Below are positions 4,357-19,144 of a stretch of 28,121 bases of DNA, piece after piece. Location of the stretch: the IMG/VR virus record IMGVR_UViG_3300048588_000756, positions 1 through 28,121 of that record. The stretch is one strand, 5' to 3'. Within the stretch, counting starts at the first letter, position 1; the number at the start of each line of letters is the position of its first letter. The notes beneath the pieces were generated by a model. The model worked only from the letters and a program-made list of their open reading frames with translations. It was not told the DNA's origin and did not search any database. The translations under genes were made by a program, and so were the position numbers. This stretch comes from a virus.

Positions 4357-4725
4357 ATGTATGACCTCATGGAAAAATCAGGGCATACATTTGAAGGTTC
4401 GCTATTCAGTAAAGAGCCACTTCGCTTGGTAAAAAAAGAAATGGATCCGCAAAGTTCAAACGATGCAATTCCAAATGATCCGGAAGAAACAATGACATGT
4501 GCACAAGTCGCCGCATTACTCAAGTGCGCTGATCGAACGGTCACAAATTATCGTAGAGAGGGAAAATTGGGAAAGTATTGGAAACTAACTCAAACTCACT
4601 TTCTTTACTCTCGAAAAGGTGTGAATGAATTTTTTGAAAAGTCTTTCTTTGAAAATTATGATGCCGAACTTGATGCTAAAGAATCATCCAGAAGAGTTTC
4701 GAAAGTAAAGCGTAAGTCCGCTTGA
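4357..4725 (+). CDS. MerR/excisionase-type helix-turn-helix protein
   Basis: A helix-turn-helix of the HTH_17/MerR-like excisionase type occupies about residues 45-92: MTCAQVAALLKCADRTVTNY, then REGKLGKYWKLTQTHFLYSR and KGVNEFFEK. The pattern (T-x3-VA-x-LL-x5-RTV, then a wing ending in a hydrophobic residue and a short helix) is that of Xis and phage regulatory proteins. The tail is basic (KVKRKSA). The start is uncertain: the ATG at 4357 has no Shine-Dalgarno, and ATGs at 4369, 4441 or 4492 are possible. TTGACA at 4334-4339 could be a -35. Placed just before the lysis and late genes, it may be a late-gene activator or an excisionase; the sequence does not decide. Confidence 0.7.
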   Translation: MYDLMEKSGHTFEGSLFSKEPLRLVKKEMDPQSSNDAIPNDPEETMTCAQVAALLKCADRTVTNYRREGKLGKYWKLTQTHFLYSRKGVNEFFEKSFFENYDAELDAKESSRRVSKVKRKSA

Positions 4726-4757
4726 GACGGTCTAGGATTAAACTTTAACATTTGATA

Positions 4758-4781
4758 AGCTAGTTTCATATGAGACTAGCT
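4758..4781 (+). promoter_or_regulatory. 24-bp palindrome centred on the SGNH lipoprotein start codon
   Basis: Left arm AGCTAGTTTCAT (4758-4769) and right arm ATGAGACTAGCT (4770-4781) pair at 11 of 12 positions, and the twelfth is a U-G wobble in RNA. The ATG start codon at 4770-4772 is at the exact centre. No Shine-Dalgarno lies in the bases before it. The site could be a protein operator just inside the first lysis gene, or an RNA or cruciform structure that blocks initiation. It is the first non-coding boundary before a run of tightly overlapped late genes. Confidence 0.6.
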
Positions 4782-5501
4782 AAACTAATTGCATTTTCGC
4801 TCTTTGCTTTATTATTCAATCTCTGTTCTCAAACATCCGATCGAGATAAAGAAAACAAACTTTTAATTCTTGGAATTCTTCATTACCAGAACACTGGTGT
4901 CTATGACTTTGCTTCTTGCCAAACCAATTACCAACTGAATCCAGCCTACATTTCTGGTGGATTTGCGGAAAGATTTATCACTGACTTCAAACAATATAAG
5001 AATGTATTTTTCGGAGACTCAACAGCGTCCTTCTATTCTGAATTTCCAAATTTTCTAAATCCAAATACAACTCAAAATAACGCTACACCCGGTGACACTC
5101 TTTGCGATTATAGATCTCGTTTTAAAAAATCAATTAACTCTACGCCTGAAAATATAATTGTCTCAACTCTTGGCGGCAATGATATATTGAGGCAAATTCC
5201 CAATTCGATAATCATCGAAACTTTTCAAGATTTCCATAAATCATTAACATCTCACTTTCCCAATTCAAAAGTATCATATGTAGAAGTTCATCCTACTTTC
5301 ATCGACTATGCCAACGCAGAACGGAAGACAGTTGCCAGTCAAATGCGAGCTTACTCTTCGGATGCGTGTTGGATTGATCCTGATGTTTGTTTTTCGAATC
5401 CACTTCTCGCATCTGAGATGTTGGATCAAATTCATCCAAACCAAGGACCTGCTTTTTGTATTAAGAATCTTCTGCTTAACAACTGCGGAGTATTACTGTA
5501 A
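4770..5501 (+). CDS. SGNH/GDSL-family hydrolase lipoprotein
   Basis: This 243-residue protein has a signal peptide with a spirochaete-type lipobox (FALLFNLC, Cys19), so it is probably a lipoprotein anchored in the envelope. The SGNH catalytic set is visible: block I FFGDSTAS with Ser84, a glycine near 108 in NNATPGDT (block II), block III LGGNDIL with Asn137, and block V MLDQIHPNQG with Asp219 and His222. Such enzymes cleave or transfer acyl/acetyl esters on lipids, LPS sugars or peptidoglycan. It overlaps the next gene by one base and heads the lysis cassette, so a role in opening or modifying the envelope at lysis is likely. Lysogenic conversion or superinfection exclusion is an alternative. 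Its start codon sits inside a 24-bp palindrome. Confidence 0.8.
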   Translation: MRLAKLIAFSLFALLFNLCSQTSDRDKENKLLILGILHYQNTGVYDFASCQTNYQLNPAYISGGFAERFITDFKQYKNVFFGDSTASFYSEFPNFLNPNTTQNNATPGDTLCDYRSRFKKSINSTPENIIVSTLGGNDILRQIPNSIIIETFQDFHKSLTSHFPNSKVSYVEVHPTFIDYANAERKTVASQMRAYSSDACWIDPDVCFSNPLLASEMLDQIHPNQGPAFCIKNLLLNNCGVLL

Positions 5502-5725
5502 TGACTGAAATGGTGAAAGCTTTGTCGAGAGATTTAACTTTGAAAGATCTTCTCTATATTATGGGACTTGGGATCTCATTTGTTTTCCAATACTTAACCA
5601 TGTATCGAGAACATGATGTGAGGATTGTCGTACTTGAAACACAAATGTTCTCCATAGGTAAGGTTATGGAAGAAGTGCGCTTGGACGTAAAAACACTTCT
5701 GCAAAGAAAACAGAAAGGAAACTAA
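5501..5725 (+). CDS. Small one-TM protein of the lysis cassette, holin/antiholin-like
   Basis: The 74-residue product overlaps the lipoprotein stop by one base (TAATG). It has a short charged N-terminus, one hydrophobic segment at about residues 17-34 (LLYIMGLGISFVFQYLTM), and a charged helical tail (RIVVLETQMFSIGKVMEEVR, then LDVKTLLQRKQ) that could form a coiled coil. One TM plus a basic tail is seen in small holins, antiholins and pinholins. Position between two lytic enzymes supports a lysis role. No family-specific motif was recognised, so the role is inferred from topology and context. Confidence 0.55.
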   Translation: MTEMVKALSRDLTLKDLLYIMGLGISFVFQYLTMYREHDVRIVVLETQMFSIGKVMEEVRLDVKTLLQRKQKGN

Positions 5726-5726
5726 G

Positions 5727-6416
5727 ATGGTTTCAAATCCTCACACAGCCAAATTTGCTTACGATTATCTAACACAAAGAGACAACAGTTTGGTGATCCA
5801 AGTCATTGATGGTTGGGTATGGAATTATGAAACCAAAAAGAAATTGTTTCCAGTTTCTGAAATGGACAAAAGAGAATCAGAACTCTTTGATCGAACAACG
5901 GAATGTTTTATTTCTTCCGGATCTATGTTTGCAGGATGCCTTCATAAAGCTGGTATTCTTGCAACCATCATCGATGAGCTGACATACAAAATCAATGTCA
6001 TCGATCATTTAAAAAGAAAACAGACTCGATTTTTTTGGGAATCTCATAAGCGCGTATTCAATGAATTTTATCTGAAAGATTCGGAGTATGAATTTGTTTA
6101 TGAAAAAGTAAATGGTAACGAGGATAAAATTCGAGCGTCGATTGATGCAGGCTTCGTTGTTATATGTTCCATCTGGATTAAGCCTTGGTATCCTTCTGGC
6201 CGTGGCCATCTCATTATCATAAAAGGATACGTTTTAGATCAGAATGGAAATATAACTGCTTGGATCTGCGATGATCCGTTTGGTGACTGCCTTTCAAAAT
6301 ACATTAATCATAATGGACACGATGTCAGATACGATTTGAAGAATTGGAGAATGATGATGAATTCTCCCGAAGATAAACCGAGATTATTTGGATATGTAAG
6401 GAAGAGAATAAAATGA
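5727..6416 (+). CDS. Papain/C39-like cysteine peptidase, candidate endolysin
   Basis: This 229-residue protein has the arrangement of a C39-like (peptidase C39_2) papain fold: a candidate nucleophile Cys60 in TECFISSGSMFAG at the start of a helix, His161 in GRGHLIIIKGYV, and Asp182/183 in WICDDPFGD. The spacing and the aromatic strands before the His (VVICSIWIKPWYPSGRG) fit the family. Such domains act in phages as peptidoglycan endopeptidases or amidases. It has no signal peptide, so it would need a holin to reach the cell wall; holin-like genes flank it on both sides. It ends in an ATGA overlap with the next gene. The endolysin role is an inference from the cassette; a virion-associated or maturation peptidase is less likely. 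Confidence 0.7.
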   Translation: MVSNPHTAKFAYDYLTQRDNSLVIQVIDGWVWNYETKKKLFPVSEMDKRESELFDRTTECFISSGSMFAGCLHKAGILATIIDELTYKINVIDHLKRKQTRFFWESHKRVFNEFYLKDSEYEFVYEKVNGNEDKIRASIDAGFVVICSIWIKPWYPSGRGHLIIIKGYVLDQNGNITAWICDDPFGDCLSKYINHNGHDVRYDLKNWRMMMNSPEDKPRLFGYVRKRIK

Positions 6417-6697
6417 GTGAAGAAGAGATTTCAAGATTAAAAGCAGAGATTGAAAAACTGAAACGGCCTATGTTTTCCAAAAATGATTTTTGGAGACTTC
6501 TTTCTGTGGCGATGATCTTTGCAGGCCAACACTATCCAAAGTTTGAAACAACGATTGGAATGTTCCAAGGAAATTTCCTCGGGAAAACAAATGAAATCAT
6601 CCTCGCAGGTCTTGCGGGATTTATATTCATTCCACTAGTGAACAGGTGGTTGGACAACAAAAAAGCAAAACGATTTTCAGAGCAGATACAAGAATGA
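6413..6697 (+). CDS. Two-TM holin candidate
   Basis: The 94-residue product starts in an ATGA overlap with the peptidase gene and ends in one with the spanin candidate. It has a charged coiled N-terminal stretch (MSEEEISRLKAEIEKLKRP), a moderately hydrophobic first segment (FWRLLSVAMIFAGQHYP, residues 26-42), a clear second TM (IILAGLAGFIFIPLVNRWL, about 62-80) and a basic tail (DNKKAKRF). Size and topology fit a small class II-type holin that would release the cytoplasmic peptidase. There is no unique motif, so holin is a context call. Confidence 0.6.
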   Translation: MSEEEISRLKAEIEKLKRPMFSKNDFWRLLSVAMIFAGQHYPKFETTIGMFQGNFLGKTNEIILAGLAGFIFIPLVNRWLDNKKAKRFSEQIQE

Positions 6698-7062
6698 GAT
6701 CACCAATTTTCAATCTGCTTTTCTTGAAAATAGTTCTGATGTTTTTTTGCATTGGGTGCGGAAGTCTTCCTATATCCGAACCAGCAACAAACGCCTATGC
6801 AAACTCTTTGAAAGAAAAAGCGAAAGCGATCAAAGAAAAGCCAGGCGTTTCCAAAGAAGAAATACTAACTGCAAATGAGTTAGAAAGAGCCGCCAATCTC
6901 ATTCAAATTTCGGGAAAACAATCTGCTGAGAACCAAGAAGAGATTCAAGACCTTAACTACAAAGCAGGTCAGATTGATTTTCTATATTGGATCGCAAGCT
7001 TTCTCATTATAGGTGCACTCATTTATTTTATAGGACCAATACTTTTAAAGAGGTTTGGATGA
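6694..7062 (+). CDS. Unimolecular spanin candidate (lipobox plus C-terminal TM)
   Basis: The frame extends upstream to 6646, but the ATG at 6694 gives the ATGA overlap used throughout the cassette and starts right at a signal peptide. The 122-residue protein has an N-terminal hydrophobic signal with a lipobox-like end (MFFCIGCGS, Cys22 most likely), a charged, helical periplasmic part of about 70 residues (SLKEKAKAIKEKPGVSKEE, then NELERAANLIQISGKQSAEN), and a C-terminal TM (LYWIASFLIIGALIYFIGPI, about residues 98-117). A lipid anchor in the outer membrane joined to an inner-membrane TM is the defining layout of u-spanins such as T1 gp11. It is the last gene before the terminase, at the usual end of a lysis cassette. 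Confidence 0.65.
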   Translation: MRSPIFNLLFLKIVLMFFCIGCGSLPISEPATNAYANSLKEKAKAIKEKPGVSKEEILTANELERAANLIQISGKQSAENQEEIQDLNYKAGQIDFLYWIASFLIIGALIYFIGPILLKRFG

Positions 7063-7622
7063 CTCCAGAGATCATTCGTGAACGTGCTTTCTATATGTAC
7101 CTTGTCGGAGGTGAATCGTTTAATTCCATTGCATTGAGCTTACGAACTGAATTTGGAACGAAAACCACGGCCAAGTCAGTTCAGTCATGGGCTACTAAAA
7201 AAGATTCCATCGGAATGACTTGGGAAGATCGAAGGAAAGCCGTTACGCAAATTGCGGAATCAAGAATTGAAGTCGTTGCAGAGAATCGATTGGTTGAGAT
7301 CCGAACTAGAACCAAAAAAATCATCGATACAATTTACGAATCAATGATCTCCGAACATGCACCTGGCATCAAAACATTGGAAGGTGCCGCTTACGCATTC
7401 AAGACGTTAGCTGAATTTGAAACAAAGCTCGCAGATATGGAAGATTCAAAATTATCTCCAATGATGCTCATTCAATCTTTTTTCAATGCACTGATGAAAT
7501 GCAAACCTGTTTCCGTAGTTATCGAAAAACATTGGGATGAGATAAACAAAATCATTCGAGATGATTTCATTCATGTTTCTTCTTCAAACACACCTACGAT
7601 AAAGAATGTCACTGAACGATAA
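7059..7622 (+). CDS. Terminase small subunit-like protein
   Basis: The start chosen is the ATG at 7059, in an ATGA overlap with the spanin candidate and preceded by AGAGG; a longer frame from 6987 would run through that gene. The 187-residue product has an N-terminal helix-turn-helix (RERAFYMYLVGGESFNSIAL, then TEFGTKTTAKSVQSWATKK), which fits DNA recognition by a small terminase (DUF1804/Mu gp27-like layout). A long central helical region (AESRIEVVAENRLVEIRTRT) would oligomerise. It immediately precedes and overlaps the terminase ATPase gene by 17 bases, which is strong positional support. The protein would select the packaging site and stimulate the large subunit. Confidence 0.75.
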   Translation: MTPEIIRERAFYMYLVGGESFNSIALSLRTEFGTKTTAKSVQSWATKKDSIGMTWEDRRKAVTQIAESRIEVVAENRLVEIRTRTKKIIDTIYESMISEHAPGIKTLEGAAYAFKTLAEFETKLADMEDSKLSPMMLIQSFFNALMKCKPVSVVIEKHWDEINKIIRDDFIHVSSSNTPTIKNVTER

Positions 7623-8325
7623 AGACATATTTCAAAAGTTCTCAGAGGAAGGAACCAAACGATTTTCTAAAATCAAGAAAGAAGATCGTATTCATTATGG
7701 AAAAGAGTTCGGTCAAAAATCTTTACTCGCATTTGCAAGATATATCGATCCAAAATTCGAAGCTCCCAAACATATCAAACTGATCATCGATGTGTTAGAA
7801 GATATGGAGAAAGGAAAGATTCTTCGCACTATTATCAATATGCCTCCAAGACATGGTAAGTCTCAAATCTGCACACGCATTTTTCCAACTTGGTATCTTG
7901 GAAAACATCCTGATATAGAAGTCATCATAGCATCGTATTCAAATAAAAAAGCAGAGCGATTTACTGGCTGGATTCGAGACAGAATTGAAGCTCCTGCGTT
8001 CTCCGCCGTCTTTCCCGATGTTGCTGTGCGTGATGATGTAAGAGCTAGGAGCGATTGGCAAACGACAGCCGGCGGTGTTGTGATCGGTGCTGGCCTCTCA
8101 GGAGGTTTAACTGGAGAAGGTGCAGGCCTTCTCATCATTGATGATCCATATAAAAACATGGAAGAAGCAACATCGGAAACGATGAATGAAAAAATCTGGG
8201 AGAACTATCTTAGCGTTGCGGAAGCTCGTTTGGCACCAAATGCAAGGGTTCTTATCGTTCACACACGTTGGACACGAAACGATCTAACTGGCCGACTCCT
8301 CGGAGAGGATAAGGACGAAGAATGA
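7606..8325 (+). CDS. terL-N: Terminase large subunit, ATPase half (split gene)
   Basis: The 239-residue product contains the packaging ATPase: Walker A PPRHGKS (residues 80-86), Walker B LLIIDDP (175-181) with the catalytic acid following, and the coupling motif VHTRW (218-222). The adenine-side motif region (DVLEDMEKGKILRTIINMP) precedes Walker A as usual. The protein stops at LTGRLLGEDKDEE, exactly where full-length large terminases continue into the linker and nuclease. The nuclease follows as a separate gene starting in an ATGA overlap. Together they total about 480 residues, the normal length of one large terminase. The ATPase would drive DNA into the prohead at the portal. Confidence 0.9.
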   Translation: MSLNDKDIFQKFSEEGTKRFSKIKKEDRIHYGKEFGQKSLLAFARYIDPKFEAPKHIKLIIDVLEDMEKGKILRTIINMPPRHGKSQICTRIFPTWYLGKHPDIEVIIASYSNKKAERFTGWIRDRIEAPAFSAVFPDVAVRDDVRARSDWQTTAGGVVIGAGLSGGLTGEGAGLLIIDDPYKNMEEATSETMNEKIWENYLSVAEARLAPNARVLIVHTRWTRNDLTGRLLGEDKDEE

Positions 8326-9056
8326 AAGTTGAAACTGTTGGTGATTGGAAAGTATTGCGATTGCCTGCTATCGATGACGAAGGGAAAGCACTTTGGCAAG
8401 AAAGGTTTCCCATAGAACGATTGCAAAAAATCCGCACGCTTTATAACGAAAAAAGATTCAGCGGAATCTATCAACAAATTCCTATGGATACCGTTGGACA
8501 TTGGTTTGTTGATCCGATCTTTAGTGAGCCACCCGATGATCTGAAAATGATTGGATGGTGGGATCCGGCTTTTAAAAAGGAATCAAAGAAAAAAGACTTC
8601 AACGGCTTTGGTGCCGGGAATGTTCATGAAGATTTATTCTATTTAAAGAAAGGTGAAATTTGGAGATCAGATCTCAGATCAACCTATGATAAAATTGAAA
8701 AGCTTTATTTCCAATTAGGCCTAGAACTTCTTTATGTGGAAGTTAACCAGGGACAAGATGCTCTCATCATTGAATTAGAAAACCGAGGACTCCGAGTCAA
8801 ACCTCACTACTCCTCGGACTCTAAAGAATTTAGAATCGAAAACTATGTAAAATTGAATTGGAACAAGATTCGATTCAGCAACCAAGTGAGTCCCGAATTT
8901 ATCAAACAGATTTTGAAATATACGGAGCTTGCTAAGCATGATGATGCCCCGGATACTTTGGCATGTCTCATCAAAATACTCGGCTTTGGAATCAAAGCTA
9001 AATCGTTAAAAAATAGAATGAATTTCTTTGACTTACTTTTCGGAGGTGATTGGTGA
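8322..9056 (+). CDS. terL-C: Terminase large subunit, nuclease half (split gene)
   Basis: This 244-residue protein starts with the linker segment normally internal to large terminases (DWKVLRLPAIDDEGKALWQE), then an RNase H-like nuclease domain. Candidate metal ligands are Asp81 in IGWWDPAF, Glu140 in LLYVEVNQGQD and Asp207/208 in KHDDAPDTLA. Its ATG overlaps the ATPase stop as ATGA, and an AAGGA lies about six bases upstream of the ATG, so independent translation is plausible. No slippery heptamer is seen at the junction, arguing against simple -1 ribosomal frameshifting. It ends in a GTGA overlap with the portal gene. It would cut concatemeric DNA at the start and end of packaging. Confidence 0.9.
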   Translation: MKVETVGDWKVLRLPAIDDEGKALWQERFPIERLQKIRTLYNEKRFSGIYQQIPMDTVGHWFVDPIFSEPPDDLKMIGWWDPAFKKESKKKDFNGFGAGNVHEDLFYLKKGEIWRSDLRSTYDKIEKLYFQLGLELLYVEVNQGQDALIIELENRGLRVKPHYSSDSKEFRIENYVKLNWNKIRFSNQVSPEFIKQILKYTELAKHDDAPDTLACLIKILGFGIKAKSLKNRMNFFDLLFGGDW

Positions 9057-10642: not shown

Positions 10643-12235
10643 ATGTATCCTTTGGCTTTGGAACAGCAATATGGAGAGTTATTCAGAGAAGAATTTTCTG
10701 TTTTTGCGGAAGAGTTGAACCGAAAGTTTCTCTCTTTAGCCAAAAAATACCTCCGAGACAATCCAAACACAGATCCGAGGCTCGATTCGACATCAGAATT
10801 TGATCAAAATAAAACTGAAGTGAAGCATGACATCTCAGATTTACTAAAATCTCTTTTCCAATTGCGAGATGAGTATGGAGATTTTCCACCAAGACCAAAA
10901 TTTGAATCTCAAATCAAACGAAACATTCATCAAATTGATGCTTGGACTCGCGACAAAACAGGCGAAGTCATCCAGAAGCAAAATGAAATGATGGGAAGTC
11001 CTCCGAGAGCTGGAGTCAGCGGTGGCGATCGCTCTCAATTCAGAGTTCCGGCAGTGAATTTGCCTGCGAGTGAGAGTCCCATCATTTGGGACCGTGTCAA
11101 TGAGACGATTAACAAAAATCGTAAGATCGCATCGAGTGCTTTCAAGTCACATTTCGCTGATGTCCAATCTCAAATTGAATCTGGAATTCGAAATGGAACT
11201 TCCTACCAAGAGTTAGCTAAGAAAATTTCAGAAACAACCGATGTCTCACTATCCAGGGCAGAATTTTGGGCAAAGGATCAAGCCAAGAATTTTTATGCCG
11301 AACAAACTAAGCTCCGACAAACGGCAGCTGGTTTTCCTGGGTTCATTTGGAAAACTCAAAAAGATTCTAGAGTTCGAGATACGCATGAACTCCTCCAAGA
11401 TAAATATTACACTTGGGATGATCTTCCGTTTGTAAATAGGAAAGGATTGGGACTCGTTCGAACAAAACCAGGAGATGAATGGGGCTGTAGGTGTTGGGCG
11501 GAACCTGCACGGGGGCCGAAAGGATCTCAGACAAATCGACCTGTAGAACCGCCAATTCAAATACAATCGAGAGAACAAAAAGCAAGTGAAACCTTAGCGA
11601 GTAAAATTCAAATTAACTCGAAAGAATCATTTGTTCCCAAAGTAAATCAATCCATAAATGATCTTTCTTCAATCTTTAAAATTCCAAATAATCTTACTCC
11701 AATAAAATTGAATACAATGAGTCCGACTTTACAAAAAAAGAATGTCCTAGGACTTTATAATCCAGAAAATTCTGTGATTGCCCTCAATCCATTGCCAAAA
11801 TTTGAAGATGTGATCCAGACAACTTTCATTCATGAGTTTGGGCATATGATTGATTATAAATTACTTGGGCCAAAAGGTATTTTTGGTTCTAATTCATCGG
11901 CACTCTCCAGCTTCAAAACAGCGGTCATTGGCACCAAATTGTACGACCAATTGAAAATTGCATATCGAACAGGAATGATTTCGAGAGATGGAAAAAATAT
12001 AGAACTGACCAAACCATTCCGAAATACACTCCAGTATCTTTTAAGCACCGAAGAACTTTTTGCAAGAGCCCACGAAATGTATATCACTCGAAAATTGGGT
12101 TCAAGTGAACTTTTGAGACAAATTCGAAAAAAGGAAAAAATGAATTTTATTTCCCATTATTGGGATGATGAAGACTTTAAAAAGGTTGAACAAGTCCTGG
12201 ATAAGATATTTAATGAAAACGGAATCCTAAAATGA
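10643..12235 (+). CDS. MuF-like head morphogenesis protein fused to HExxH zincin domain (candidate MuF toxin)
   Basis: This 530-residue protein has two parts. Residues about 155-290 are a phage Mu F-like minor head domain (AKDQAKNFYAEQTKLRQTAA, then IWKTQKDSRVRDTHELLQDK and GDEWGCRCWAEP with the conserved WGCRC). After a linker rich in Pro/Gln/Ser (290-330), residues about 335-530 form a zinc metallopeptidase-like domain: TTFIHEFGHMIDYKLL gives HExxH at 397-401, and STEELFARAHEMY (468-480) is a plausible third-ligand segment (Glu470 or Glu471). MuF proteins with variable C-terminal enzyme domains are known as polymorphic toxins of temperate phages (MuF toxins), carried in the virion with a downstream immunity gene. 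A small gene overlaps this one by ATGA, matching that arrangement. Toxicity is an inference; a capsid maturation role is the alternative. Confidence 0.82.
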   Translation: MYPLALEQQYGELFREEFSVFAEELNRKFLSLAKKYLRDNPNTDPRLDSTSEFDQNKTEVKHDISDLLKSLFQLRDEYGDFPPRPKFESQIKRNIHQIDAWTRDKTGEVIQKQNEMMGSPPRAGVSGGDRSQFRVPAVNLPASESPIIWDRVNETINKNRKIASSAFKSHFADVQSQIESGIRNGTSYQELAKKISETTDVSLSRAEFWAKDQAKNFYAEQTKLRQTAAGFPGFIWKTQKDSRVRDTHELLQDKYYTWDDLPFVNRKGLGLVRTKPGDEWGCRCWAEPARGPKGSQTNRPVEPPIQIQSREQKASETLASKIQINSKESFVPKVNQSINDLSSIFKIPNNLTPIKLNTMSPTLQKKNVLGLYNPENSVIALNPLPKFEDVIQTTFIHEFGHMIDYKLLGPKGIFGSNSSALSSFKTAVIGTKLYDQLKIAYRTGMISRDGKNIELTKPFRNTLQYLLSTEELFARAHEMYITRKLGSSELLRQIRKKEKMNFISHYWDDEDFKKVEQVLDKIFNENGILK

Positions 12236-12474: not shown

Positions 12475-12556
12475 TTTCCTGACTCTCTAAAACATTTAAA
12501 CTAACTCACTCGAAACCTCCTCTTAACCTAGCCTAAGCAAGCCTTGGTTCTAAATC

Positions 12557-12578
12557 GAATCAATTGTAGAATTGATTC
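12557..12578 (+). promoter_or_regulatory. Hairpin immediately upstream of the capsid protease start
   Basis: GAATCAATT (12557-12565) and AATTGATTC (12570-12578) form a perfect 9-bp stem with a GTAG loop. It ends two bases before the ATG at 12581, and no Shine-Dalgarno is present between the previous gene and the ATG. It may be an operator, a translational control hairpin or a processing site separating packaging from capsid genes. The stretch 12475-12556 shows no clear promoter or terminator. Confidence 0.55.
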
Positions 12579-12580
12579 AG

Positions 12581-13819
12581 ATGAGAACATCACCAGATGC
12601 GATTCGATATGACAGTGCCACGATAGAGCTCGTAAGCTCTTCTGAGAAAGAACAATTTCTCAGGTTCCGCGTTGCATTCGCTCGTGCTGGTGTTTTTCCT
12701 TATTACCATCTGAACGGATCCATCAGGCGTGAAGCGAAACTCCCAGAAGATTTATTTTCTGAGGATGCCATTGCTTCTGCTCGCGGCATTCCTGCCACAG
12801 ATGATCACCCCCCAGTTACTGAAAACCAAGGTCTCCTAACGACTGCCAATGCGACTCGTTTTGCGAAAGGTGCGCTAGGCGATTCTATCGAAGTCGGCGA
12901 AGGAGAAATCCTTTGGGGCAACGAAACGGTTTGGGATGAAGAGTTAAAAGCTTCATTGCTTAAGGGTGAGAAGCTCGAAGTCAGTGTAGGTACTAGATGT
13001 AAGATAGACCATACACCCGGAGAGTATAAGGGACAGCCGTATGATGTTCGCCAAACGAATATTCGATTTAACCATTTGGCCCATGTGAATAAAGGTCGAG
13101 CGGGTTCTGAGGTGCGAGCCTATTTAGATCACGCAAATCCTGAGATGAACATTGCCATAAGAATCGATTCAAACGATAAGGAAAACCAACGAATGAAGAA
13201 ACCAGATTGGCTTACGAAAACCGAAGCTTTCTTAAAGAGTGTTGGAGTGAAATTGGATAGTGCTGATGGTGCTGCCGATGATCCAACCAAACAACAGCAA
13301 GAACCTGCTCAGCCTAATCCGCAGGAACCAAAGAAGGATGAAATTCCTCCTGCTCCCACTGCTGCTCCGATGAACAACGATAGCGTTCTTATCAAAGCCT
13401 TGCAAGACCAAGTAAAACTTCTCGAAGAAACTTTGAGTGCAACAAGAGCAATCTTGGAACAGGCTCTTTCTCCTGCTACGCAAGATTCCATTGCACGTCG
13501 AAGACTTTCTCTCATTGATTCTGTTCGCGCCGTTGATCCGGAAGCTAAGACAGATTCTTTATCGGAAAGAGAATTGAAAATCCTTGTCGTGACAAAAGTT
13601 CTTCCGCCAGCGGAAGGAGTGAAACTCGACTCGTTCGATGATGTGAAACTCGACGCTCGTTTTGAAGCTGCTATGGAACTTGCCAGAACTAACGCGGCAC
13701 TCAGAACCGGCAAAAGTCCTTCCGGAACACAATCGCAGGTCAATCTCGATGCGGATCAAGAGATTGCCAAAATCAAACAAGACCGCCTTCAAATGGCTCA
13801 AACAAAGGAGAAAGTTTAA
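12581..13819 (+). CDS. DUF2213-type prohead protease with C-terminal scaffold region
   Basis: The ATG at 12581 is preferred over the in-frame TTG at 12572, which lies inside the hairpin. The 412-residue protein has an N-terminal DUF2213 domain (residues about 10-190): PYYHLNGSIRREAKLPEDLF, IPATDDHPPVT with the conserved DHP, KLEVSVGTRCKIDHTPGEYK, and FNHLAHVNKGRAG. This family supplies the capsid maturation protease in phages that also carry DUF1073 portals and DUF2184 capsids. From about 205 the sequence turns low-complexity (Pro/Gln/Glu) and coiled-coil (KALQDQVKLLEETLSATRAI), which fits a scaffold. An in-frame ATG at 13193 with AAGGA ten bases upstream could give a separate scaffold of 208 residues. 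It ends in a TAATG overlap. Confidence 0.75.
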   Translation: MRTSPDAIRYDSATIELVSSSEKEQFLRFRVAFARAGVFPYYHLNGSIRREAKLPEDLFSEDAIASARGIPATDDHPPVTENQGLLTTANATRFAKGALGDSIEVGEGEILWGNETVWDEELKASLLKGEKLEVSVGTRCKIDHTPGEYKGQPYDVRQTNIRFNHLAHVNKGRAGSEVRAYLDHANPEMNIAIRIDSNDKENQRMKKPDWLTKTEAFLKSVGVKLDSADGAADDPTKQQQEPAQPNPQEPKKDEIPPAPTAAPMNNDSVLIKALQDQVKLLEETLSATRAILEQALSPATQDSIARRRLSLIDSVRAVDPEAKTDSLSERELKILVVTKVLPPAEGVKLDSFDDVKLDARFEAAMELARTNAALRTGKSPSGTQSQVNLDADQEIAKIKQDRLQMAQTKEKV

Positions 13820-14814
13820 TGAAACGAACTCTCATTTTTCTATTTTCAATTCTTTTCTTTTCATTGATTGGCATTTCGTGCCTTTACATAGCACCTGAAA
13901 CTCTTGGTCAATATATTCCATTTCAAAAAAGCGATTTGATTGGATTGTTTTCTGGAGTGACTCTCGCAATTAGCGGTGTTATGCCAGACGGCGGACTTTA
14001 CAATGATAAAGCTGGTTTATTTGGAACTGTTGCACGGGACTCCGTAAACTTATATCGAGTAGGCGGTAAAGTTGCAATAGGTAGAGTGCCTTTTGGATTT
14101 GGTATTTCTCTCGTTGCAGATGGCGATGGAGTTTCTGTTGTAGGTGCTGATGCAGTTCCTGATAAATTAGAGTCTGGATCTGGAAATGCTGGATTAAGAT
14201 TGATTACTAAAGAGATCGCCACTTGGGTAAGGTTTGCTATTGTCAATCCGGGAACAAACAATGCCTCACTTGCGCTTACGTTAGAAGGTGAAGGAACGCA
14301 AAGTGACCCTTACGTAATCACAGTGAGCACGGCAACAAACGGATCTGCTCAAATCACATCAACTGCTTCATTAGTCAAAACTGCCTTAGAAGCAAATGCT
14401 GAAATTAACTCAATCATCTCAGTTGAACTCTTGGGTTCAGGTGCAAGTGCAGTTGTTGCCCAAGCAGAAGCACCTTTGATGAAGAGCGTTGCAGATTTGC
14501 GATTTGACGGTGTTGCCGCTCAATCGAGTGCCGCTGGTGATTTAGAAAATGGTGCTTATCTCGATTCTCAACTTGCAACCTTCATTAATAAGGGAAATGT
14601 TTTTGTCCCTTGTGAGGAAGCAACTAAGGAACTTGATACTGTTCGCATTCGACTTGTTACCGATGGTGCTAACCTTGCAGGTCAGTTTAGAAAATCTGCA
14701 ATTCCAAATGTGACCGCTGTGATCAAAGGAGTCAAATTTGGTTCTAATCAAGAAATTGGTGCGGCTGAACTCGACTTATCCTCTGGTTTCTACGAACTCA
14801 CACTCGACGTATAA
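13819..14814 (+). CDS. Capsid decoration/head fibre-like protein with hydrophobic N-terminus
   Basis: The ATG at 13819 has a strong AAGGAG eight bases upstream and overlaps the preceding stop, so this start is well supported. The 331-residue product has an unusual N-terminus for a capsid protein: a signal-like hydrophobic stretch ending in ISC (TLIFLFSILFFSLIGISC, Cys21) and a second hydrophobic stretch (LIGLFSGVTLAIS). From residue 55 the sequence (DGGLYNDKAGLFGTVARDSV, NLYRVGGKVAIGRVPFGFG) resembles DUF2190-type capsid decoration proteins. An inserted beta-rich module (about 135-220: VRFAIVNPGTNNASLALTLE, then DPYVITVSTATNGSAQITST) is also found in the tail sheath. It lies between protease and major capsid genes, the normal place for decoration proteins. 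Confidence 0.65.
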   Translation: MKRTLIFLFSILFFSLIGISCLYIAPETLGQYIPFQKSDLIGLFSGVTLAISGVMPDGGLYNDKAGLFGTVARDSVNLYRVGGKVAIGRVPFGFGISLVADGDGVSVVGADAVPDKLESGSGNAGLRLITKEIATWVRFAIVNPGTNNASLALTLEGEGTQSDPYVITVSTATNGSAQITSTASLVKTALEANAEINSIISVELLGSGASAVVAQAEAPLMKSVADLRFDGVAAQSSAAGDLENGAYLDSQLATFINKGNVFVPCEEATKELDTVRIRLVTDGANLAGQFRKSAIPNVTAVIKGVKFGSNQEIGAAELDLSSGFYELTLDV

Positions 14815-17205: not shown

Positions 17206-17786
17206 TCACAAAACAGATAGAAGAAATATTTACACGCCTTGGTTTGGAGCTAGGATACGAGCTTGCACGAATCAAAGGTACACCAGTGGAAGAAGCCGTG
17301 GCCATTCCAATTGATAGAGTGGATCAAGTTTCCGAGAAGCCATCCTATCCTTATGGAACTTATCGCTTGGGAAGTATCAAACGAGTTCCAACGAAGAGTT
17401 CTTTCTATGTCGATGAGGACATCGTTGTTGATGAAGAGATCGATTCCGAAAAATTCAAACGCACTGAGAAGAAGAGAGCCTCTGCTTTCATTTCATTTTC
17501 GATCCTTCACGAAAAATCTTTAGCGACAGCTATTGCTTTAACAGACTTTGCAATGGATTTTTTTGATTCAGAGGAAGGGATGACTTTCTGTGAAACCAAA
17601 GGCATCACTCCTACTCTTATCAGCGATTCCGTTGAAGATCGAACCGTTGTTTTTGACAATGTTCGCTATGATTACAAAGCGGGATTTGATCTTAACTTCA
17701 ATTTTTACCGAACCAAGGAATCAGAGGTAGCTCTGATGCAACCACCAAGTAACGAATCTATTCAATTTCAGGATGAGGAAAATTAA
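17202..17786 (+). CDS. Neck terminator protein, gp12-like (LIC_12616-like)
   Basis: The ATG at 17202 gives an ATGA overlap; the frame also extends back to 17160, which is disfavoured. The 194-residue protein has the arrangement of neck/tail terminator proteins: an N-terminal helix (IEEIFTRLGLELGYELARIK), then SYPYGTYRLGSIKRVPTKSS, a strand EKKRASAFISFSILHEKS, a helix ALTDFAMDFFDSEEG and a final beta hairpin (RTVVFDNVRYDYKAGFDLNF). I recall the same pattern in LIC_12616-family proteins, named after a Leptospira interrogans locus, which supports the host guess. The protein would cap the tail tube and sheath and dock the tail to the neck. It overlaps the sheath gene by one base. Confidence 0.7.
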   Translation: MITKQIEEIFTRLGLELGYELARIKGTPVEEAVAIPIDRVDQVSEKPSYPYGTYRLGSIKRVPTKSSFYVDEDIVVDEEIDSEKFKRTEKKRASAFISFSILHEKSLATAIALTDFAMDFFDSEEGMTFCETKGITPTLISDSVEDRTVVFDNVRYDYKAGFDLNFNFYRTKESEVALMQPPSNESIQFQDEEN

Positions 17787-19144
17787 TGCAATCAGTCATT
17801 GAACCAATTGTAGTCAATATAAGCTTGGCGAACACGGCCGTCGCACAAGCTAACTTTAATCTGGCCTTACTTTTGGATACGAAAGCTCCATTGTACTTTG
17901 CCAAACTATTGAGTGGTGAATCAGGACTGATATGGAAAGCCAAAACTGGCGGACCAGTTTTCATTGGTGTCACCTATGTCGTGTCAGGTAACAACACCGC
18001 GTTGTCTGTTGTTCTAAGTGGATCAGGAACATCCGAAGCACCTTACCTCATCACCGTCAACTTGGCAACGAATGGATCCGGAGCGGCAACCTCTACAGCA
18101 GCAGCGGTAAAAACTGCGGCAGAGGCAGTGAGTGAAGTTGCGGCACTTGTAACCATTCAATTAGAAGGCACTACAGGTAACACGGCACTCGTAGCCGTTC
18201 CATCAACTGCTCTTACTTATGAGCGTTATATGGAAATTCTTGAGGCTGATGATCTATTGGCACTTGGGTTCGTAAGTTCAGATGTTGCTTACAAAAAAGC
18301 GCAGGCATTTTTTGAACAACCAGATGCTCCAGGTAAATTGGCAGTCTATTTGCTGACAGCTTGGTCTGCAATTGAAACAGAAATTGCTGCACTAAGAAAC
18401 TCAGGTAAGAATTCTTGGTATAAGGTTTTTGGGACTACAAATACAAAAGCAGAAATCATTTTGAATTCGAACTATATGGCTTCAATTCGTAAACGATACT
18501 TCGGTTTAACGAATGATATCACTATCTCAGTTGGTAGAAATCAAGTTCGTGAACTTTTGATTCTTCACAATGATTTGAATAATCATGCTGATGCACGTTT
18601 GCTAGGTGCCACTGTTGCTTTGGAACCTGGAACATATAACTATGCATACTTGAGATTGTCTGGTGTCACAAATTCAGGTTTCTCGAATTCTCAAGTATCT
18701 TCAATCCTTCAAGACAAAGGCAATGTAATTGCAATGTTTGGTGGCTTTCAAGTTTTTTGGAATGGAATGACAACGGGTGGAGCCTGGGCAGATATCATCG
18801 ATCTGAAAGACTGGTTAGAAGCTAGACTTTTGGAAGATACATCGGGGGTTTTCTTAAACAATAAGAAGATAGGTTATACATTAAAAGATGTAAATAAAGT
18901 TGAGTCCACATTGCGAAGGCGAATGGATTCCGCAGCCAAACAAGAAAAAATTGCACCAGTGGAAAGTGAAGACGATCAGACAAGATCAGATATGGGAGCT
19001 TACCAATACAAAATCTTTCTACCTGAATCAATTGCAGAAATTCCAGACAACGAAAGAAACAACCGTCTCTTTCCAGCGATCAAATTCAGTGCGAGATTGG
19101 TTGGTGCCATCAATGAGATGGATATCGAAGGCGTATTTACTTAA
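17786..19144 (+). CDS. Contractile tail sheath protein (DUF3383-like)
   Basis: The 452-residue protein shows DUF3383 sheath features: an N-terminal strand ANFNLALLL, then YMEILEADDLLALGFVSSDV, AYKKAQAFFEQPDAPGKLAV, the central domain, the LEARLLEDTSGVFLNNKKIG region and a C-terminal domain (YQYKIFLPESIAEIPDNERN) ending in GAINEMDIEGVF. Presence of a sheath defines a contractile tail. An extra beta-rich module at about residues 48-143 (TALSVVLSGSGTSEAPYLIT, VNLATNGSGAATSTAAAVKT) is inserted between the N-terminal strand and the YMEIL block, and resembles a module in the decoration protein at 13819. It is followed directly by the tube gene. Confidence 0.82.
   Translation: MQSVIEPIVVNISLANTAVAQANFNLALLLDTKAPLYFAKLLSGESGLIWKAKTGGPVFIGVTYVVSGNNTALSVVLSGSGTSEAPYLITVNLATNGSGAATSTAAAVKTAAEAVSEVAALVTIQLEGTTGNTALVAVPSTALTYERYMEILEADDLLALGFVSSDVAYKKAQAFFEQPDAPGKLAVYLLTAWSAIETEIAALRNSGKNSWYKVFGTTNTKAEIILNSNYMASIRKRYFGLTNDITISVGRNQVRELLILHNDLNNHADARLLGATVALEPGTYNYAYLRLSGVTNSGFSNSQVSSILQDKGNVIAMFGGFQVFWNGMTTGGAWADIIDLKDWLEARLLEDTSGVFLNNKKIGYTLKDVNKVESTLRRRMDSAAKQEKIAPVESEDDQTRSDMGAYQYKIFLPESIAEIPDNERNNRLFPAIKFSARLVGAINEMDIEGVFT

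Follow-up and report, generated by a model that had tools for sequence, protein, structure and literature searches.

The gene at positions 4770 to 5501 of the window (the whole stretch of DNA analyzed here, 28,121 bases in length) heads a phage lysis cassette and encodes a protein that, by its sequence, is a near-certain member of the SGNH/GDSL superfamily of hydrolases. As a component of the cassette the gene is a real and conserved feature. Taken together, its place, its coupling to the following gene, its conservation, and an RNA hairpin predicted at its start codon favor a late role linked to lysis. The explanation that we prefer, and to which we give roughly even chances, is that an SGNH esterase anchored in the envelope and expressed late in infection helps to open the envelope at lysis, with its start codon held in the hairpin; that the protein has some part in lysis we consider likely on the sequence data.

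The SGNH gene and its lysis cassette

The gene content of the virus record identifies it as a piece of a contractile-tailed phage. The divergent genes of the left arm, together with a repressor, are followed by an HTH gene, the lysis module, and the small and large terminase genes, downstream of which lie the pilot and head protease genes and then those for sheath, tape measure and baseplate. The features of the lysis region are as follows.

4357..4725, + strand: HTH_17-type DNA-binding protein, just upstream of the lysis operon (Pfam HTH_17, 29.7 bits, cut-off 27; phrog_9099, 3.2e-27)
4758..4781, + strand: predicted RNA hairpin, 10 bp with loop AUAU, enclosing the SGNH start codon; a near-palindrome in the DNA
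4770..5501, + strand: SGNH/GDSL hydrolase, 243 aa, ATG start, TAA stop; signal sequence, Cys19 (probable lipid anchor), six further invariant Cys, Ser84/Asn137/Asp219/His222
5501..5725, + strand: 74-aa holin/anti-holin-family protein (phrog_10340 "holin/anti-holin", 9e-18), its start overlapping the SGNH stop by one base
5727..6416, + strand: C39-like cysteine peptidase, putative endolysin (Peptidase_C39_2, 20.9 bits, below the cut-off of 24; phrog_10051 endolysin, 7.6e-8; phrog_8519 cysteine protease, 6.7e-4)
6413..6697, + strand: 94-aa membrane protein with one TM segment (Kyte-Doolittle), possible second holin/anti-holin
6694..7062, + strand: u-spanin-like lipoprotein, Cys22 after IG, C-terminal TM
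7059..7622, + strand: terminase small subunit, the downstream border of the lysis module (phrog_2414, 1.4e-41, scanned from 6987; start at 7059 set by eye)

The preliminary description of this DNA had credited the protein with a complete Ser84/Asn137/Asp219/His222 set, and all four residues lie at those positions in an open reading frame with the boundaries it gave: Ser84 in FGDSTAS, Asn137 in LGGND, and Asp219 and His222 in DQIHP, with Gly108 as block II. Pfam PF00657 matches the window protein with 25.8 bits, above its cut-off of 23.6, and PF13472 with 31.1 bits, slightly below its cut-off of 32.9; both GDSL models match all four homologs described below at E<=1, and no NCBIfam model scores the protein above its own cut-off.

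The further claims that the gene heads the lysis cassette and shares one base with a holin-like gene also hold. The TAA stop and the next ATG overlap as TAATG, and in each of the four phages the lysis module begins with the SGNH gene, coupled in this way to its neighbor, and includes a u-spanin-like lipoprotein. The window cassette also has holin-like genes and a peptidase. In the window and in the contig L002 it is followed by the 74-aa holin-like protein, in which the Kyte-Doolittle scale finds no strong TM segment, and then by the C39-like peptidase, the 94-aa membrane protein and the u-spanin-like lipoprotein. In the contig L085 the order is a 69-aa holin-like protein, a 106-aa holin/anti-holin (phrog_5871), the lipoprotein and the peptidase; the 94-aa protein of the window is placed like this holin/anti-holin, with a low identity of 26%. 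In L084 a 205-aa i-spanin-family protein (773-1390) replaces the holin-like gene behind the SGNH gene and the one-base overlap is kept, so that the coupling outlives a gene swap.

By its sequence the 6694-7062 product has the features of a u-spanin, namely an N-terminal lipobox, a C-terminal TM segment and no periplasmic Cys. The last is the published rule for this class (PMC6139136), and in all four phages the lipoprotein has two hydrophobic ends and zero Cys past the lipobox (alignment A4). It drew no PHROG spanin match.

We also considered the SGNH lipoprotein itself as the o-spanin of a two-component spanin and rejected this, since an i-spanin-family neighbor occurs only in L084 and the lipoprotein with a C-terminal TM segment is a distinct protein in all four phages.

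The HTH_17 gene is found by tblastn in L002 (68%) and at about 52% in L004-L006 and L008-L010, relatives that carry another lysis module; in L007 it is broken. In L085 too it lies upstream, as an ORF at 7519-7869 recognized by eye. Leptospiral transposable prophages are described as lacking Mor/C (PMC8705779), and the HTH_17 protein could therefore be the late activator.

The phage and its probable host

The phage probably infects Leptospiraceae (Leptospira-group spirochaetes). We base this on its G+C content, on a tail-fibre match to phage LE1, and on the likeness of an endolysin in a relative to that of LE1. The G+C of the window is 0.39, as compared with 0.387 for 46 kb of phage LE1 and 0.385 for a 2-kb piece of the L. 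biflexa plasmid p74; a 41-aa stretch of a tail fibre from the window matches LE1 with 46% identity (E 1.6e-7); and LE1 has an M23 endolysin that shares 45% identity with that of the relative L005. The window also shares with the Leptospiraceae transposable prophages, as set out in section 2.5 of PMC8705779, divergent arms, sheath and baseplate genes, and a lysis module of cysteine-protease type near the head genes. No TnpA or TnpB transposase was found among the six left-arm proteins scanned in this 28-kb fragment, PADLOC returned nothing of note, and Rfam and tRNA scans of the window gave no matches.

Two features outside the lysis module were observed in passing. The large terminase is encoded by two overlapping genes, an ATPase-like half at 7606-8325 and a nuclease-like half at 8322-9056; it is split in L002 and L084 as well and gives two tblastn places in each of L004-L010, and in L085 it is a single 478-aa ORF (10715-12151). 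A predicted virion structural protein at 13819-14814 (phrog_8757) has an N-terminus that looks like a lipoprotein signal (...LIGISC), and phrog_8757 also matches residues 43-144 of the tail sheath (17786-19144; 9e-15), a stretch shared with the 13819-14814 protein and perhaps a single inserted domain used twice.

Homologs and distribution

As a lone query the window protein (P0001) found no match in the phage, plasmid or viral-contig collections. Relatives were reached through the terminase and holin genes, which led to L002, and with a two-row SGNH alignment, which led to L084 and L085. These three and the window make up the four homologs counted, all of them known from metagenomic contigs only. 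Each contig was counted once (L002=L082=L083=L087=L104; L085=L088=L103=L105=L107), L003, which starts inside the peptidase gene, does not enter the count of presence, and L084 is a 6.6-kb contig that starts 44 bases before its SGNH gene. The preliminary description had proposed looking for the gene in the lysis cassettes of other Leptospira phages. In the three metagenomic contigs it does stand first; phage LE1 gave no SGNH match, and neither did plasmid p74. Other searches added little: a blastn search with the cassette and a peptidase query were both unproductive in the phage collection, and the SGNH protein of L085 drew only chance-level matches from it at E<=10 (best E 2); L005 found nothing useful in the plasmid collection, alignment A1 nothing in genome contigs, and alignment A3 only a Rhodococcus terminase.

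In the four-row alignment the identity to P0001 is 59% for L002 (60% by tblastn), 53% for L084 and 52% for L085. Ser84, Gly108, Asn137, Asp219 and His222 are invariant in all four, so that the loss of catalytic residues in homologs, which had been named as evidence against the original reading, was not seen. The one variation at block I is in L085, which has GNS in place of GDS, as does the solved esterase 6njc. Between the window and L002 the dN/dS is ~0.2 (pS 0.66, pN 0.26), which indicates purifying selection, and over the same pair the SGNH protein diverges faster than its neighbors, its identity being 60% where nine other genes have 68-93%.

Seven relatives, L004-L010, have terminases 63-66% identical to that of the window and carry another lysis module. 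In L005, L007 and L009 (families assigned from L005) the interval from the HTH gene to the small terminase gene is occupied by an i-spanin-family protein, a spanin, an M23-type endolysin and a membrane protein, and the first of these genes was found in all seven. Searches with phrog_14008 and with the A2 profile (the four-row SGNH alignment) found the SGNH gene in none of the seven. By itself phrog_14008 matches 4 of the 11 phage records and also 7 of the 14 control genomes, and we therefore treat it as a general SGNH profile and its matches as no sign of a close family. Relatives without the gene had been a second ground named for doubt, and such relatives exist; their entire lysis cassette differs, however, and their bearing on this gene is therefore slight. 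With first place in four of four phages against none of seven in the M23-type relatives, the SGNH gene belongs with the cysteine-peptidase cassette, its place fixed amid shuffling.

Both modules have counterparts in the survey of Ndela et al. 2021 (PMC8705779), in which prophages of the TA-TA group have a holin/antiholin pair and a cysteine protease, and those of the TG-CA group an M23 peptidase with holin and spanin predictions. The window cassette, with its cysteine protease, resembles the former and thus agrees in type with what was reported for Leptospiraceae transposable prophages, and the L005-type relatives resemble the latter.

It might be argued that the gene is a passenger (a moron) that plays no part in lysis and came to its place by accident, given that all seven relatives with the other module manage without it. 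Its first place and one-base overlap are constant in all four phages while the later genes change, however, and it is under purifying selection, and we hold this explanation to be very improbable.

Export and lipid anchoring

The N-terminus of the SGNH protein is a signal sequence in which Cys19, invariant in all four homologs, closes the hydrophobic stretch. The preliminary description had called this site a lipobox. A Cys does occupy position 19 and never varies, but the box is non-canonical, with Leu at -1 (LFNLC in the window), and the word was too strong: across the four homologs the residues at this position are Leu, Phe, Phe and Ser, and three of the four break the usual rule. On the other hand, Loa22 orthologs from pathogenic and intermediate Leptospira carry Leu or Phe there as well, and the leptospiral lipobox has been called much more flexible (PMC4758666), so that lipidation at Cys19 is plausible, as far as sequence can indicate, despite the unusual box. 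All seven cysteines of the protein are invariant and none of the four homologs has an additional one, a pattern that would fit one lipidated Cys and three disulfides.

Many phage SGNH domains belong to tail-associated deacetylases. We rejected this identity here on account of the signal sequence and the location in the lysis module.

Fold and candidate substrates

The nearest solved relative in both sequence and fold is the sialate O-acetylesterase of Bacteroides/Phocaeicola, with GNS at block I, the A2 profile giving weak matches in the PDB to entries annotated as sialate O-acetylesterase/lysophospholipase L1 (6njc, E 0.025; 7pzg, E 0.03). An AlphaFold2 model built from the four-row alignment is of low confidence (pLDDT 55.5, pTM 0.53); its top nine Foldseek hits are all SGNH enzymes, with a best E of 8e-3 and none below 1e-3. 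Among the lower hits are TesA, platelet-activating-factor acetylhydrolases and peptidoglycan O-acetylesterases, and the fold hits thus do not tell substrates apart.

In one alternative the protein would be a peptidoglycan O-acetylesterase, or another wall deacetylase, that readies the wall for the endolysin. Peptidoglycan O-acetylesterases are found among SGNH enzymes, two were retrieved by Foldseek (4k3u at rank 30 and Ape1, 8gkd, at rank 37), and the gene adjoins the putative endolysin gene. These hits are low-scoring, however, and to much longer chains, and the putative endolysin resembles cysteine peptidases, enzymes that would presumably have no need of glycan deacetylation; we think this identity unlikely.

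A TesA-like lysophospholipase was also considered, which would finish the solubilization of membranes or clear lysophospholipids freed at lysis and would be dispensable for opening the envelope. The motifs SGDT and GGND are reminiscent of TesA, the L085 protein matches the NCBIfam TesA model weakly (E 0.062), and TesA structures appear at Foldseek ranks 21, 28, 34, 38 and 41. All of these matches are weak, however, and the best-ranked hits are glycan esterases, which makes a TesA-like role quite improbable.

A predicted hairpin at the start codon

In the window the AUG of the SGNH gene is formed by the hairpin loop and the first base of the 3' arm, and hairpins occur at the matching place in L002, L084 and L085, and thus in all four phages. 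Over 55 bases the minimum free energies for the window, L002, L084 and L085 are -13.9, -14.6, -14.4 and -14.0 kcal/mol, with z values of -3.73, -3.97, -5.16 and -4.56, and in each case 0 of 200 shuffles folded as well. The four starts rank 3rd to 6th in fold energy among 85 gene starts, a control list in which some starts are approximate (7030 in the window and 3931 in L002, for example, are not true start codons). Among 184 mechanically called ATG ORFs from 11 loci, 8 are at or below the unrounded -13.9 and the SGNH starts take places 6 to 9, the discrepancy between place 9 and a count of 8 being due to the rounding of -13.9.

The codons of the 3' arm show unusual conservation within the two sub-groups. 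Between the window and L002 they are identical at 4 of 4, against 73 of 135 elsewhere (p 0.09), and between L084 and L085 at 7 of 7, against 76 of 177 elsewhere (p 0.003). The stems of the sub-groups are in different registers, and covariation, at 2 of 10 pairs, is not above that of shuffles, 135 of 500 of which reach it. Near-palindromes as such are not rare, with 20 overlapping ones in the window as compared with 7-15 in five first-order random sequences. In the window, with its near-palindrome, the site may instead be a DNA operator, but the stems of L084 and L085 have a bulged A, which is more in keeping with an RNA hairpin.

Two other starts were seen to be structured. A near-palindrome at 12556-12579 is located at the start region of the head protease gene and folds as strongly as that of the SGNH gene. 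In the other lysis module the AUG of the first, i-spanin-family gene is paired in a hairpin of -10.6 to -11.2 kcal/mol, in seven sequences that are nearly identical.

Starts of i-spanin-family genes with paired AUG: L004 2155; L005 6382; L006 6382; L007 6395; L008 6390; L009 6395; L010 1796

A promoter belonging to the SGNH gene was not detected above background: the region scanned holds 16 promoter-like matches where 13.0 are expected, and a weak match at 4722-4751 falls within the shuffle background.

These data bear on a further explanation, in which the lipoprotein reaches the cell surface as a modifying esterase that deacylates or deacetylates LPS or other glycans and so keeps the lysogen or infected cell from binding the same phage, or released virions from sticking to debris. 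The nearest solved relatives are glycan-acting enzymes, leptospiral lipoproteins are often surface exposed (PMC2387172), and the divergence of the SGNH protein, faster than that of its neighbors, fits a changing surface target, so that involvement in surface change or in host specificity would accord with it as well. Nevertheless, a start folded in a hairpin is ill-suited to constitutive expression in a lysogen, the gene shows no promoter of its own above the shuffle background, and it lies first in the lysis module of all four phages, overlapping the next gene. We consider a surface role somewhat unlikely.

Discussion

In the explanation that we favor, the SGNH esterase would be exported, anchored by lipid at Cys19, and held by three disulfides. 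Its production would fall in the late phase of the lytic cycle, alongside that of the holin-like protein, the cysteine-peptidase endolysin and the u-spanin-like lipoprotein. By cleaving acyl or acetyl esters of the host envelope it would cause the envelope to yield when the endolysin acts. The hairpin would block translation of the SGNH gene on upstream read-through transcripts, with a late transcript, or unfolding, freeing the start. The esterase may nonetheless be accessory, since the u-spanin-like lipoprotein, present in all four phages, may already open the outer membrane.

The preliminary description held an SGNH lipoprotein beside a u-spanin to be an unfamiliar arrangement. For phages of spirochaetes we likewise found no report of an SGNH-headed lysis cassette in the literature searched, and the words SGNH, GDSL, esterase, lipase and hydrolase are absent from the main text of PMC8705779, although published TA-TA prophages may nevertheless carry such a gene. 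More broadly it does not, as the combination has parallels in the GDSL lipases encoded beside holin and endolysin in Pseudomonas syringae phages and in LysB of mycobacteriophages. The P. syringae phages psageB1/nickie encode a GDSL-like lipase ahead of their holin and endolysin genes (PMC12173070, PMC8537276), and esterase activity of the Psa phage GDSL lipase domain has been measured in a chimera (PMC12173070). The window likewise has a GDSL hydrolase upstream of these genes and, probably, a diderm host. The P. syringae lipase differs, however, in having a carbohydrate-binding domain, neither a lipid anchor nor a start-codon hairpin is reported in the relevant parts of these papers, and phages and host are not the same. 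Other uses of SGNH domains have been described as well (PMC3853054, PMC9746216, PMC9862828, PMC10462455, PMC13331135).

The position of the SGNH gene in its cassette also fits a placement like that of LysB, with the SGNH activity a predicted one. LysB cleaves the mycolyl-arabinogalactan ester and is an alpha/beta hydrolase (cutinase-like, GxSxG) that is not known to be a lipoprotein. The window protein, in contrast, has Pfam matches to the SGNH/GDSL families instead of to LysB-type alpha/beta hydrolases and is a probable lipoprotein. In mycobacteriophage Ms6, LysB is a lysis-cassette esterase that carries out a third lysis step, at the outer lipid layer (PMC5707550).

For the hairpin the closest parallel is the lysozyme gene e of T4, in which a helix at the start region keeps the gene from being translated early, and late transcripts, from which the 5' strand is missing, are translated well (PMC3014915). 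In both cases the start region of a phage lysis gene lies in an RNA helix; the T4 transcripts are known, whereas here the helix is a predicted fold. What is new in the present cassette is thus the probable lipoprotein, the leptospiral type of phage, the constant one-base coupling, and the hairpin at the start codon.

A broader proposal can be drawn from these comparisons, one that we regard as speculative and not very likely to hold in full: in some phages of the leptospiral group an SGNH enzyme tethered to the outer membrane of an LPS-bearing diderm would be a third-step lysis enzyme beside the u-spanin-like protein, like LysB but on another fold, and its translation, with that of the coupled holin-like gene, would be gated by the hairpin until late transcription.

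How phages leave spirochaetes has been little studied, and Ndela et al. described the lysis proteins of leptospiral transposable prophages as "not directly visible" (PMC8705779, section 2.5). If the hairpin works as in T4 gene e, the lysis genes of unrelated phages would have reached the same timing device. With an esterase gene always in first place, one type of cassette would extend the holin-endolysin-spanin scheme by an enzymatic step in a diderm host, and our data suggest that the phages bearing the SGNH gene supplement the usual steps of lysis with an enzymatic attack on the envelope.
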